From NCBI GenBank assembly GCA_945861265.1, contig CAMAUC010000007.1, forward strand, positions 25,182-89,181: a stretch of 64,000 nt of DNA, written 5' to 3'. Every line of letters starts with the position of its first letter. The stretch's first letter is position 1. Positions 31,915 to 38,628 of this stretch are shown in pieces. The notes beneath the pieces were generated by a model. The model saw nothing but the letters and a program-made list of their open reading frames with translations, had not been told where the DNA came from and ran no database searches. Source of the stretch: Rhizobium sp. Q54. GTDB lineage: Bacteria > Pseudomonadota > Alphaproteobacteria > Rhizobiales > Xanthobacteraceae. The translations under genes were made by a program, and so were the position numbers.

Positions 31915-34900
31915 ATGTCGATCCTCGCCGGCCTGCACCACGTCACCCGCTATATCTATGACAAGCCGATCGCCCTCGGGCCGCAGATCGTGCGACTGCG
32001 GCCGGCGCCGCATGGCCGTACGCGAATTCCGAGCTATTCGCTCAAGGTGAAGCCCGAACAGCATTTCGTGAACTGGCAGCAGGACCCGCACGGCAACTGG
32101 CTGGCGCGTTTCGTCTTCCCGGAAAAGACCAGCGAATTTTCGGTGACGGTCGATTTCCTCGCCGATCTCGAAGTCGTCAATCCGTTCGACTTTTTCGTTG
32201 AACCGTTTGCCGAACAGTGGCCGTTCGAGATGCCGGCCGACATCAAGGAAGATTTGCTGGCCTATGTCGATCCGGAACCGGCAGGTCCCCTGCTGCGGAC
32301 GCTGATCGATTCGATTTCGCGCGAGAAGCGCAACACCGTCGACTTCCTGGTCGAGCTCAACCAGCGCATCCAGTCGATCGTCAAATATATCGTGCGTCTC
32401 GAACCGGGCGTGCAGACGCCGGAGGAGACGCTCGTCTCCGGCTACGGTTCATGCCGCGACTCGGCCTGGCTGCTGACGCAGCTGTTGCGCCATATCGGTC
32501 TGCCGGCGCGTTTCGTCTCCGGCTATCTCATTCAGCTGAAGCCGGACATCAAATCGCTCGACGGCCCGAGCGGCACCGATCACGACTTCACCGATCTGCA
32601 CGCCTGGACCGAAGTCTATCTGCCCGGCGCCGGCTGGATCGGTTTCGATCCGACGTCGGGCCTGTTGTGCGGCGAAGGTCATCTGCCGGTGGCGGCGACG
32701 CCGCATTACCGTTCCGCCGCGCCGATCACCGGCATGGTCGAACCGAGCGGCGTCGATTTCGAATTCGAAATGAAGATCGAGCGCATCGCCGAACGGCCGC
32801 GCGTCACCGCGCCGTTTTCGGACGACGCCTGGGCCGCGCTCGACGCGCTCGGCGAGAAGGTCGATGCCGATCTCATCGCCGGCGACGTGCGCCTGACCAT
32901 GGGCGGCGAGCCGACCTTCGTGTCGATCGACGATTATCAATCGGCGGAATGGAACACCTCGGCGCTCGGACCGCAGAAACTCATCCGCGCCAACGATCTG
33001 ATCAAGCGCCTACACGATCGCTTCGCGCCCGGCGCGCTGGTGCATTACGGCCAGGGCAAATGGTATCCCGGCGAGGAACTGCCGCGCTGGGCCTACTCAT
33101 TATACTGGCGGCGCGACGGTCAGCCGGTCTGGCAGAATCTCGAATTGATCGCGCGCGGCCGAACCACGCCGGAGCCGACCTCGCTCGACGCGCAGAACTT
33201 CGCTGAAGGCGTCGCCGCGCGGCTCGGGCTGAAAGGCGAATTCGTGCAGCCGCTTTATGAAGACCCGGCCGACCGTCTGCTCAAGGAAGGCGCGCTGCCG
33301 CCGAATATCGATCCGGGCAATCCGAAGCTCGACGATGCTGCCGAGCGCGGCCGCATCCTGCGTACCTTCGAGCGTCACCTCACCCATCCGACCGGCTTCG
33401 TCTTGCCGGTGCAGCACTGGAACGCTTCGGCGAAAGCCGGCTGGCTCAGCGAGCTGTGGCAGACGCGGCGCGGCCGGCTGTTCCTGATCGCCGGCGATTC
33501 GCCGGCCGGCTTCCGCCTGCCCTTGAGCCAACTGCCCTATTTCGTCGCCGCCGATTATCCGCACCTGGTGCCGGGCGATCCGATGGACGAGCATCCGCCA
33601 TTGCCGGCGGCCGCCATGGTCGCAGCCCCGCCGCGCGCCGACAAACAGCCCGCCGCCGAAACTCTGGTCGCGCAGGCTGGTCCGCGCACGCTGGCAGGGT
33701 TACAGGCCTCCGGCATTCCGGTGCGCACCGCGCTGACTTTGGAAGTGCGCGACGGCCGTCTGTGCATCTTCATGCCGCCGACCGAGCGGCTGGAGGATTA
33801 CCTCGAACTGCTGGCGGCGGTCGAAGCGACCGCGGCGGCGATGAAGCTGCCGGTCCATATCGAAGGCTATACGCCGCCGGTCGATCCGCGTATCGACGTC
33901 ATCCGCGTCACGCCCGATCCCGGCGTCATCGAAGTCAATGTGCAACCGGCCTCGAGCTGGCGCGAAGCGGTCACCATCACGCGCGGCCTCTACGAAGACG
34001 CGCATCACTCGCGGCTCGGCACCGACAAATTCATGATTGACGGCCGTCACACCGGCACCGGCGGCGGCAATCACGTCGTGCTCGGCGGCCGCAATGCCGC
34101 CGACAGTCCGTTCCTGCGCCGGCCCGATCTGCTCAAGAGCCTGCTGATCTATTGGCAGCGCCATCCGTCATTGTCCTACCTGTTCTCCGGCCTGTTCATC
34201 GGTCCGACCAGCCAGGCGCCGCGCATGGATGAAGCGCGCACCGACATGTTGTACGAACTCGAAATCGCCTTCGCAAAAGTGCCGGCGCCGGATAAAGGCG
34301 AAGCACCGCCGCCGTGGCTGGTCGATCGTCTGTTCCGCAACATTCTGGTCGATGTCACCGGCAATACGCACCGCACTGAAATCTCCATCGACAAATTGTT
34401 CTCGCCGGACAGCGCCACCGGGCGCCTCGGCCTCGTCGAGTTCCGCGCTTTTGAAATGCCGCCCGATGCGCGCATGTCGCTGGCGCAGCAATTGCTGTTG
34501 CGCGCGCTGGTCGCCAAATTCTGGCGCGCACCGCTCCACGGCCCGCTGGTGCGCTGGCAGACCGCGCTGCATGACAAATTCATGCTCGAGCATTTCGTCT
34601 GGGAAGATTTCCAGGACGTGCTGCGCGATCTCAAAAGCTCAGGCTACGACTTCGACCCGGTCTGGTTCGACGCGCAGCGCCAGTTCCGCTTCCCGCGCTA
34701 CGGCGCGGTCGAGCATGCCGGCGTCAAGATGGAAATCCGCCACGCGCTGGAGCCGTGGCATGTGCTCGGCGAGGAAAACACCGCCGGCGGCACCTCGCGC
34801 TTTGTCGACTCCTCGGTCGAGCGCTTGCAGATCAAGGTCGAGGGCTTCGTCGAAGGCCGTCACCGCGTCACCTGCAACGGCCGCACGCTGCCATTGCGTT

Positions 34901-35232
34901 CGACCGGGCGCTCCGGCGAATTCGTCGCCGGCGTCCGCTTCAAGGCGTGGAAGCTCGCCTCGGCGCTGCACCCGACGCTCGAAGTCGATGCGCCCCTCAC
35001 CTTCGATATCGTCGATACCTGGAGCCGGCGCTCGCTGGGCGGTTGCGTCTATCACGTCGCGCATCCTGGCGGCCGCAATTACGAGACATTCCCTGTGAAC
35101 TCCTACGAAGCGGAGGCCAGACGGCGGGCGCGCTTCGAGGATATCGGCCATACTCCCGGCCGCTTCGATCCGCCCGAATCGGCGCGCTCGCTCGAATATC
35201 CGACGACGCTCGACCTGCGGCGCGCGCCGTAA
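31915..35232 (+). CDS. Transglutaminase-family protein with DUF2126 domain
   Basis: This 1105-residue protein combines a transglutaminase N-terminal beta domain (1-100), a core with an intact triad, Cys180 (YGSCRDSAW), His229 (DLHAWTEVY) and Asp245 (GFDPTSG), and a long DUF2126 region (about 300-1105). DUF2126 shares features with glutamine-synthetase-like amidoligases in published family analyses, e.g. the GGEPTFVS block (about 329-336) and TGTGGGNHVVLGG (about 717-729). No signal peptide is visible. It heads a three-gene locus with an ATP-grasp/alpha-E protein and another transglutaminase. The predicted role is building or processing an unknown peptide or modifying proteins; no reaction is established here. 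Confidence 0.85.
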   Translation: MSILAGLHHVTRYIYDKPIALGPQIVRLRPAPHGRTRIPSYSLKVKPEQHFVNWQQDPHGNWLARFVFPEKTSEFSVTVDFLADLEVVNPFDFFVEPFAEQWPFEMPADIKEDLLAYVDPEPAGPLLRTLIDSISREKRNTVDFLVELNQRIQSIVKYIVRLEPGVQTPEETLVSGYGSCRDSAWLLTQLLRHIGLPARFVSGYLIQLKPDIKSLDGPSGTDHDFTDLHAWTEVYLPGAGWIGFDPTSGLLCGEGHLPVAATPHYRSAAPITGMVEPSGVDFEFEMKIERIAERPRVTAPFSDDAWAALDALGEKVDADLIAGDVRLTMGGEPTFVSIDDYQSAEWNTSALGPQKLIRANDLIKRLHDRFAPGALVHYGQGKWYPGEELPRWAYSLYWRRDGQPVWQNLELIARGRTTPEPTSLDAQNFAEGVAARLGLKGEFVQPLYEDPADRLLKEGALPPNIDPGNPKLDDAAERGRILRTFERHLTHPTGFVLPVQHWNASAKAGWLSELWQTRRGRLFLIAGDSPAGFRLPLSQLPYFVAADYPHLVPGDPMDEHPPLPAAAMVAAPPRADKQPAAETLVAQAGPRTLAGLQASGIPVRTALTLEVRDGRLCIFMPPTERLEDYLELLAAVEATAAAMKLPVHIEGYTPPVDPRIDVIRVTPDPGVIEVNVQPASSWREAVTITRGLYEDAHHSRLGTDKFMIDGRHTGTGGGNHVVLGGRNAADSPFLRRPDLLKSLLIYWQRHPSLSYLFSGLFIGPTSQAPRMDEARTDMLYELEIAFAKVPAPDKGEAPPPWLVDRLFRNILVDVTGNTHRTEISIDKLFSPDSATGRLGLVEFRAFEMPPDARMSLAQQLLLRALVAKFWRAPLHGPLVRWQTALHDKFMLEHFVWEDFQDVLRDLKSSGYDFDPVWFDAQRQFRFPRYGAVEHAGVKMEIRHALEPWHVLGEENTAGGTSRFVDSSVERLQIKVEGFVEGRHRVTCNGRTLPLRSTGRSGEFVAGVRFKAWKLASALHPTLEVDAPLTFDIVDTWSRRSLGGCVYHVAHPGGRNYETFPVNSYEAEARRRARFEDIGHTPGRFDPPESARSLEYPTTLDLRRAP

Positions 35233-37759: not shown

Positions 37760-38628
37760 TCTACGACATTCGCCAGACCACAGCTTGCACTTATGCCTCG
37801 CCGGTGACGAACGCCTTTCATGTGTTGCGCCAGACGCCGGTCAACCGTCCGGGGCAGCGCGTTCAGGTCTCGTCGTTGCAGATCGAGCCGGCGCCGGTGA
37901 GCCGGCGCGAGGGCCAGGACTTCTTCGGCAACAGGCTGACCTGGATCGCGCTTGAAGACGCGCATGATACGCTGACGGTGAAAGTGTCGGCGCGGATTGC
38001 CATCGATGCCTTTGCGCTGCCGGCAAGCGCCCCCGCCTGGGAAGCGGTGCAGGAACAAGTGTTCGCTTCCGCCGACATTGGGCCGAGCGCGCCCGCGCAT
38101 TTTCTGTTCGCCAGCCGCATGGTCTCGCTCGATCCCGAAATCCGCGACTACGCACGCCAGAGCTTCCCGCCCGGCCGCGATATGCTGAAAGCCGCGAGCG
38201 AATTGATGCATCGGATCAAGACCGACATGGTCTACGAGATCGGCGCCACGTCGGTGACGACGACGCCGCCGATGTCGTTCGCCTTGCGGCGCGGCGTTTG
38301 CCAGGATTTCGCGCACATCATGATTTCCGGCCTGCGCGGCATCGGCCTGCCGGCGGCTTATGTGAGCGGCTATCTGCGCACTATCCGCCCCGCCGGCGCG
38401 GCGCGTCTGCAGGGCGCCGATGCGATGCACGCATGGGTGCTGGTCTGGTGCGGGTCCGATACCGGTTGGGTCGGCTTCGATCCAACCAACGACATGATCG
38501 CGTCGGATGAACACATCGTGCTGGCGATCGGCCGCGACTACACCGACGTTGCGCCGATGGATGGCGTGATCGTCGTCGCCGGCGGGCAGCACATCGACGT
38601 GTCGGTCAACGTCATTCCGGTCAGTTAG
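37756..38628 (+). CDS. Transglutaminase-family protein of the ATP-grasp/alpha-E locus
   Basis: This 290-residue protein has an N-terminal beta domain and a transglutaminase core with an intact triad: Cys182 (RRGVCQDFAH), His225 (AMHAWVLVW) and Asp242 (GFDPTND). ATG 37756 overlaps the TGA of the ATP-grasp gene (ATGA). Such a protein follows the ATP-grasp/alpha-E gene in many proteobacteria and is presumed to cut or transfer a peptide made by it. In many genomes a proteasome-like hydrolase gene joins the set; none is here. Confidence 0.87.
   Translation: MIYDIRQTTACTYASPVTNAFHVLRQTPVNRPGQRVQVSSLQIEPAPVSRREGQDFFGNRLTWIALEDAHDTLTVKVSARIAIDAFALPASAPAWEAVQEQVFASADIGPSAPAHFLFASRMVSLDPEIRDYARQSFPPGRDMLKAASELMHRIKTDMVYEIGATSVTTTPPMSFALRRGVCQDFAHIMISGLRGIGLPAAYVSGYLRTIRPAGAARLQGADAMHAWVLVWCGSDTGWVGFDPTNDMIASDEHIVLAIGRDYTDVAPMDGVIVVAGGQHIDVSVNVIPVS

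Follow-up and report, generated by a model that had tools for sequence, protein, structure and literature searches.

A conserved transglutaminase-DUF2126 and ATP-grasp/alpha-E operon in Rhizobium sp. Q54: predicted amide chemistry and a possible link to nitrogen shortage

Both the Anbu operon, which combines genes for an ATP-grasp protein, an alpha-E protein and a transglutaminase with that of the proteasome family member Anbu, and the idea that such genes synthesize peptides or tag proteins trace back to the amidoligase system prediction of Iyer et al. 2009, as cited in PMC6376114 and PMC5666114. The product of these systems and the role of Anbu have been standing questions since at least 2009. 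Here, we describe a three-gene locus of this kind on the plus strand of the 3.75-Mb draft genome of Rhizobium sp. Q54 (GCA_945861265.1), at positions 31915-38628 of a stretch of 64,000 nucleotides (contig CAMAUC010000007.1, positions 25,182 to 89,181 of the forward strand; "the window" below means this whole stretch). Gene 1 encodes a transglutaminase fused to DUF2126, gene 2 an ATP-grasp ligase fused to alpha-E, and gene 3 a second transglutaminase (Table 1). The ATP-grasp, alpha-E and transglutaminase are of the same families and in the same order as in the Anbu operon, but here the first two are fused, Anbu is not in the locus, and the transglutaminase-DUF2126 gene stands in front. The gene set as such belongs to a known, widespread family, which includes mycobacterial Rv2566-Rv2567-Rv2569c, in our assumption the same three-gene set with a fused ATP-grasp/alpha-E protein. 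Another relative, I35_5080-5083 of Burkholderia cenocepacia, is described in PMC5491218 as a circularly permuted ATP-grasp protein (DUF404/407), DUF403 (alpha-E), a transglutaminase-domain protein and a "large protein containing transglutaminase-like domain"; its ATP-grasp and alpha-E are separate genes, and the large protein (I35_5083) may, as we guess from this description, be a DUF2126 protein. The most economical account of the locus in Rhizobium sp. Q54 is a cytosolic amide ligase/amidase set induced by nitrogen shortage, next to which a split set, either with Anbu or lacking it, would act in many genomes.

Conservation of the operon and a second, split set

The three genes form a unit. 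Gene 2 starts 40 bases after gene 1, genes 2 and 3 are joined by an ATGA overlap (if gene 3 starts at the ATG at 37756, which is likelier than the GTG at 37741 given in the mechanical open reading frame list), and their association is conserved, which bears out the tight coupling proposed in an earlier note on this DNA. With gene 2 as the query, we collected 71 loci; 60 of them also contained DUF2126, and in 54 of these 60 gene 2 followed it on the same strand at a distance of at most 400 bases; the second transglutaminase followed alpha-E by no more than 300 bases in all 67 testable loci. Because this set is biased by its query, the survey was repeated starting from DUF2126. Within the same family, 60 of 119 genomes contain DUF2126, and an ATP-grasp lies within 1.5 kb beside it in 29 of the 30 stretches examined. 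Across the phylum, alpha-E occurs in 156 of 299 genomes, which illustrates how widespread ATP-grasp/alpha-E/transglutaminase systems are, and DUF2126 in 84, every one of which is also alpha-E-positive (Fisher p about 1e-30, uncorrected for relatedness). We examined the surroundings of DUF2126 in 39 of these 84 genomes, hand-picked for spread: a fused-type ATP-grasp is present in 34 stretches, in 26 of which it lies downstream within 400 bases in the same-strand order, and 23 of the 39 contain a second, split ATP-grasp/alpha-E pair as well. Neighborhoods lacking a conserved association were looked for, and the three genes proved to be strongly associated instead; one stretch (L134) has a divergent DUF2126 with none of the partners within it, and a Caballeronia plasmid carries transglutaminase-DUF2126 with a fused-type set in the same order. 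The relatives nearest to gene 2 (89-96 % identity) come from assemblies named Rhizobiales, Bradyrhizobiaceae, Rhizobium sp. Q54 and Pseudolabrys.

The fusion of ATP-grasp and alpha-E had been read in the earlier note as a departure from the usual two genes. We rejected it as a novelty: the two form one open frame in 68 of 68 testable loci of the query-biased set and in 33 of 33 testable DUF2126-centered stretches, so that the fused frame is the norm for such loci.

The genome contains a single DUF2126 match. Profile searches revealed second copies of alpha-E and CP_ATPgrasp on a small contig (C109). Here, ATP-grasp (508 aa) and alpha-E (313 aa) are two separate genes, and behind them comes a transglutaminase that runs into the contig end; at the end of another contig (C16) lie the remainder of a transglutaminase and an Anbu of 248 aa, for which a PDB search returned solved Anbu chains with E values down to 8.7e-80. 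Since these ends share an overlap of 145 bases (94.5 % identity), the contigs, which we left unjoined, probably adjoin. A genome search with PF00227 had returned one match only, HslV (next to HslU), and missed Anbu, which scored below the cut-off; the view that Anbu is missing from the genome was rejected on reading contig C16 and on the PDB search. Because PF00227 scores Anbu under its cut-off, a PF00227 survey of 80 genomes (G213, G268 and G303 left out) undercounts it, and no count from that survey is used. Thus, the absence of a proteasome-like hydrolase, as first read, is true of the locus (the best Anbu match in the window, at E 0.28, is not significant), whereas it does not extend to the organism. 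Anbu was likewise found in none of the 71 fusion-query loci, within the DNA examined around each, and in 9 of 40 phylum stretches (the 39 above and L153, an alpha-E contig), 5 of which also hold the fused set (L119, L130, L135, L150 and L151). In L122, L124, L148 and L156, all of one lineage, the fusion is missing and Anbu follows DUF2126 at a distance of 149-226 bases from match end to match end.

Predicted enzymes and a degenerate branch

Pfam profiles confirmed the domain make-up first read from the sequence (Table 1); NCBIfam profiles gave 0 matches to the three proteins. Gene 2 is a full-length match to PF14403, the circularly permuted ATP-grasp type 2 family (460 bits against a cut-off of 32), and its ATP-grasp half aligns end to end with the solved chain 3n6x. 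A loss of ATP-binding residues was checked for at the level of sequence motifs and alignment and not seen: the ATP-grasp motifs are conserved. The fold is that of glutathionylspermidine and peptide-amine ligases, with a correspondingly predicted activity, and glutathionylspermidine synthetase/amidase and YgiC/YjfC were compared with gene 2 as relatives by this ligase fold. In glutathionylspermidine synthetase/amidase, the amidase is a CHAP domain within the same chain. The alpha-E half is all-helical in the structural model and bears the motifs R-Y-V-E-R-A-E (529-535) and G-R-R-I-E-R (678-683), of which Arg529, Tyr530, Glu532, Arg533, Gly678, Glu682 and Arg683 are invariant in 37 sequences. 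Both Cys-His-Asp triads, described as intact in the earlier note, are indeed so: the gene 3 triad is conserved throughout an alignment of 101 sequences (101 of 101, with the window's own among them) and the gene 1 triad in all active-branch sequences (23 of 23). All three proteins lack an N-terminal hydrophobic stretch and therefore look cytosolic, as judged by reading the sequences and not by a signal-peptide program. As a side observation, a 1125-aa single chain (P0218) combines transglutaminase, ATP-grasp and alpha-E in a precomputed Pfam list, i.e., genes 2 and 3 in one protein.

The DUF2126 half of gene 1 adopts a glutamine-synthetase fold in the predicted structure, and we propose Glu332, Glu650, Glu673, Asn675, His712, Asn719, His720, His819, Glu842 and Arg844 as candidate active-site residues with presumed roles; from the motifs of glutamine synthetase, we assume that they correspond to its metal- and ATP-binding residues. 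Further indications come from a degenerate relative (L096; 38 % identity to gene 1), which stands beside a more normal copy (52 % to gene 1) that is ended by the contig edge. A search with the degenerate protein gave 4888 matches, with planctomycete and polyangial source names among the 120 best listed, and from these best 120 we hand-picked 39 rows for an alignment, the query's own entry included. The 23 active-branch sequences show no variation at any of the thirteen positions (triad and DUF2126 candidates). In the degenerate branch, Cys180 of the triad is kept in 1/39, with His229 in 37/39 and Asp245 in 39/39, and most DUF2126 candidates are rare or gone (Glu332 6/39, Glu673 1/39, Asn675 0/39, His712 1/39, Asn719 0/39, His720 0/39, His819 4/39 and Glu842 4/39). 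From the aligned sequences, both active sites look to have been lost together, which points to the likely catalytic residues of DUF2126 and suggests a coupled use of the two halves of gene 1.

This picture of the enzymes has to be set against observations that weaken it. Glu650 (39/39) and Arg844 (19/39) are retained in the degenerate branch, and the residue types examined there show 85 near-invariant positions lost, so that the loss extends past the candidate catalytic ones. Foldseek on its own links DUF2126 to the glutamine-synthetase fold at a best E value of 2.5e-3, and DUF2126 differs from glutamine synthetase and gamma-glutamylmethylamide synthetase in that a profile comparison with 14 glutamine synthetases of relatives detected no sequence similarity (hhalign probability 0.73 %, over 35 columns). 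Moreover, Bact_transglu proteins may be proteases instead of transferases, and the enzymatic role of all three proteins is a prediction from sequence.

A sigma-54-type element and nitrogen control of related sets

The consensus of sigma-54 promoters is YTGGCACGrNNNTTGCW. In the 160-base gap between a molybdopterin dehydrogenase gene and gene 1, the element CGGCCCGGAACTTGCA matches their GG-N10-GC core and deviates from the TGGCAC consensus at its first base (C) and sixth base (C). PMC13207237 reports a CGG variant for one set of RpoN-associated sites in Bradyrhizobium sp. DOA9. Among close relatives, the element is present in 20 of 22 upstream regions, 58-162 bases before the start, against a chance expectation of 0.007 per 200 bases; this count leaves out L046 and L052 (too little upstream sequence), L047 (odd start), L057 and L061, and becomes 20 of 24 if the last two, both without the element (scores 1.0 and 6.5), are included. 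Of 12 non-redundant upstream regions (<10 % of 8-mers in common outside the site), 11 contain a GGCC-N6-TTGC core, whereas the next tetramer pairs at this spacing reach 7 of 12, as shifted readings of the same site, and shuffles at most 4. Since the element also occurs at 8 loci without upstream purine genes, it belongs to the operon. In a wider scan, the element is patchy: 22 of 52 upstream regions score at least 9.5. Of 68 regions from the same-family and phylum sets, 9 reach a score of 11, compared with a mean of 1.7 and a maximum of 5 over 20 resampled controls; a score of 13 is attained by 6, compared with 0.35 in the controls. The split ATP-grasp of the same genome has a site as well, TGGCCTGAAGCTTGCA, with a score of 14.3 and 116 bases before an internal ATG that we took as its start (codon 36 of the listed frame), and 3 of 24 regions upstream of split ATP-grasps in the phylum set reach 13 against 0.25.

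Published expression data show nitrogen control of related sets. Under nitrogen limitation, an ntrC mutant of B. cenocepacia had 6- to 9-fold lower expression of I35_5080-83, and PMC5491218 lists these genes among the common targets of NtrC and sigma-54. In Pseudomonas putida, PP_2686-PP_2688 rose 11- to 15-fold under nitrogen limitation in the wild type and 17- to 37-fold in a relA/spoT mutant, in which the Anbu gene PP_2685 changed 4.8-fold (data given in PMC7801951), and the PP_2688 promoter gave a 3.7-fold reporter response to nitrogen according to PMC8050072. An association of the domains of the ATP-grasp/alpha-E/transglutaminase set with urea domains in marine metagenomes is reported in PMC3597751. 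Among the papers listed by searches of an open-licence library, none was found to name DUF2126 in a nitrogen context.

Other results speak against control of the operon by nitrogen through sigma-54. Thirty of the 52 upstream regions in the wider scan score below 9.5, including those of Paracoccus, Hoeflea and Rhodoblastus, only L016 of 30 same-family loci (L002-L031) reaches that value, and a loose form of the pattern is about as common genome-wide as its reversed control (15 versus 12). PP_2686-PP_2688 were still up 14- to 20-fold in an rpoN mutant, as was urtA, which speaks against a strict need for sigma-54 there, and PP_2685 hardly changed (wild type 1.12, rpoN mutant 1.45), both according to PMC7801951; its promoter was nitrogen-agnostic in the reporter data of PMC8050072. 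The published induction concerns the split set and the beta-proteobacterial cluster and not the window's operon. Purine catabolism was rejected as a component of the system, as only 12 of 50 loci, all of one lineage, have the molybdopterin dehydrogenase gene immediately before the operon.

Proposed function and alternatives

We tentatively propose, as a reading that is quite possible though somewhat short of probable, that under nitrogen scarcity the operon forms amide bonds that join small peptides or amino acids to amines, and subsequently remodels these bonds. We infer its regulation, the direction of its chemistry and its substrates as follows. Low nitrogen, acting via a sigma-54 activator such as NtrC, would turn the operon on, as the conserved element and the published regulation of relatives suggest. 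Fold and motifs are consistent with an ATP-grasp domain that phosphorylates a peptide carboxylate, which an amine would then attack, on the model of the glutathione, glutathionylspermidine and peptide-spermidine synthetases, while alpha-E may hold the acceptor or position the product. DUF2126 would activate a glutamate-type carboxylate and form a second amide in the manner of glutamine synthetase, a step to which its predicted fold and the residues lost jointly in the degenerate branch point. Finally, the two papain-fold transglutaminases, with their intact triads, could cut or transfer such amides, which would allow nitrogen to be put into storage, transported or regained. The genome's split ATP-grasp/alpha-E/transglutaminase/Anbu set likely contributes to this pathway, in which Anbu would be an additional hydrolase. 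The earlier, general prediction of peptide ligation or processing holds up in this sense, with domains, triads and operon confirmed and the activity itself predicted, whereas the fusion as an unusual trait and the organism-wide lack of a hydrolase do not.

The proposal competes with protein tagging or turnover, in which the ligases would attach a small tag and the transglutaminases and Anbu would remove it or degrade the tagged protein. The idea has already been published (cited in PMC6376114 and PMC5666114) and fits the family of Anbu, the presence of a split set with Anbu in the genome, the five stretches that combine Anbu with the fused set and the four in which Anbu follows DUF2126 directly; we nevertheless consider it unlikely, given the absence of Anbu around the fusion-query loci and the report in PMC6376114 that Yersinia Anbu showed neither peptidase activity nor a complex with the operon proteins. 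Nor did clustering of the flanking open reading frames of at least 50 aa around 72 loci, with a crude gene calling that favors antisense frames in G+C-rich DNA, reveal a recurrent substrate peptide or a conserved small frame fit as a tag. Apart from the operon genes and their antisense frames, the flank families seen most often were the lineage-bound purine genes and, at 13 of 72 loci, generic ABC-transporter ATPases. These largest families, which were read and not individually annotated, also make it rather improbable that the operon produces a specialized small peptide or pseudopeptide (a signal, metallophore or antibiotic), for which ATP-grasp and glutamine-synthetase-type ligases would be suited: only the operon genes and the generic ATPases recur across lineages, and presence in half of the family genomes (60 of 119) is a wide distribution for such a product. 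Modification of the envelope or capsule through amide bonds seems very improbable; the transglutaminase-like HvyA acts there in Caulobacter (PMC10274813) and the inactive transglutaminase RloB in Pseudomonas (PMC12239564), but the three proteins look cytosolic. Anti-phage defense was rejected, as PADLOC gave no match.

Going beyond the proposed amide ligase/amidase set, one could imagine a nitrogen-starvation "amide bank" in Proteobacteria, in which two unrelated ligases, ATP-grasp and a new glutamine-synthetase-fold class, would load amines rich in nitrogen as amides onto a carrier peptide or protein, to be unloaded by transglutaminases and Anbu; the fused and split modules, often side by side, would be two arms of one pathway, and the degenerate transglutaminase-DUF2126 branch a regulatory pseudoenzyme. 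This larger picture is speculative and, taken as a whole, unlikely to be right. Likely nitrogen control, the promoter element, a predicted glutamine-synthetase-fold partner and inactive-looking paralogs nonetheless allow directed experiments on timing, mutants and bond class.

Table 1. Positions of the operon, its domains and promoter element in the window, and of related features on other contigs
Feature	Position	Strand	Remarks
Sigma-54-type -24/-12 element CGGCCCGGAACTTGCA	31810..31825	+	GG-N10-GC spacing
Gene 1, transglutaminase fused to DUF2126	31915..35232	+	1105 aa; DUF2126 a predicted glutamine-synthetase-fold amidoligase
Transglutaminase half of gene 1 (aa 7-246)	31933..32652	+	Bact_transglu_N 7-82, Transglut_core 129-246; triad Cys180-His229-Asp245
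DUF2126 half of gene 1 (aa 278-1102)	32746..35220	+	DUF2126, 1310 bits
Gene 2, circularly permuted ATP-grasp ligase fused to alpha-E	35273..37759	+	828 aa
ATP-grasp domain of gene 2 (aa 96-468)	35558..36676	+	CP_ATPgrasp_2, 460 bits
Alpha-E domain of gene 2 (aa 516-814)	36818..37714	+	Alpha-E, 226 bits
Gene 3, second transglutaminase	37756..38628	+	290 aa; Bact_transglu_N and Transglut_core; triad Cys182-His225-Asp242
Split set, first part	L112 (C109) 289-2924		ATP-grasp, alpha-E, start of transglutaminase
Split set, second part	L115 (C16) 4250-5829		Rest of transglutaminase, Anbu
Degenerate transglutaminase-DUF2126 protein	L096 2142-5420		

Elsewhere in the window, a purine-nitrogen block (22077-31754) precedes the operon and comprises a BMP/PnrA-type ABC transporter, an 8-oxoguanine deaminase, which scores 671 bits against an NCBIfam cut-off of 532, and xanthine dehydrogenase-type subunits of a molybdopterin dehydrogenase, which stay under the NCBIfam cut-offs. 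The window holds at least 4 transglutaminase-like genes, genes 1 and 3 counted; the others lie in a region with genes at 14006-14830 (-), 14940-15884 (-) and 15907-16734 (+), where two stand side by side, adjoining an N-formylglutamate amidohydrolase gene. Downstream of the operon, two adjacent genes for secreted binding proteins (43287-45433, minus strand), which on reading look like members of the tripartite-tricarboxylate (Bug) family, stand beside a tRNA-Arg(cct) gene (43123-43199, minus strand).

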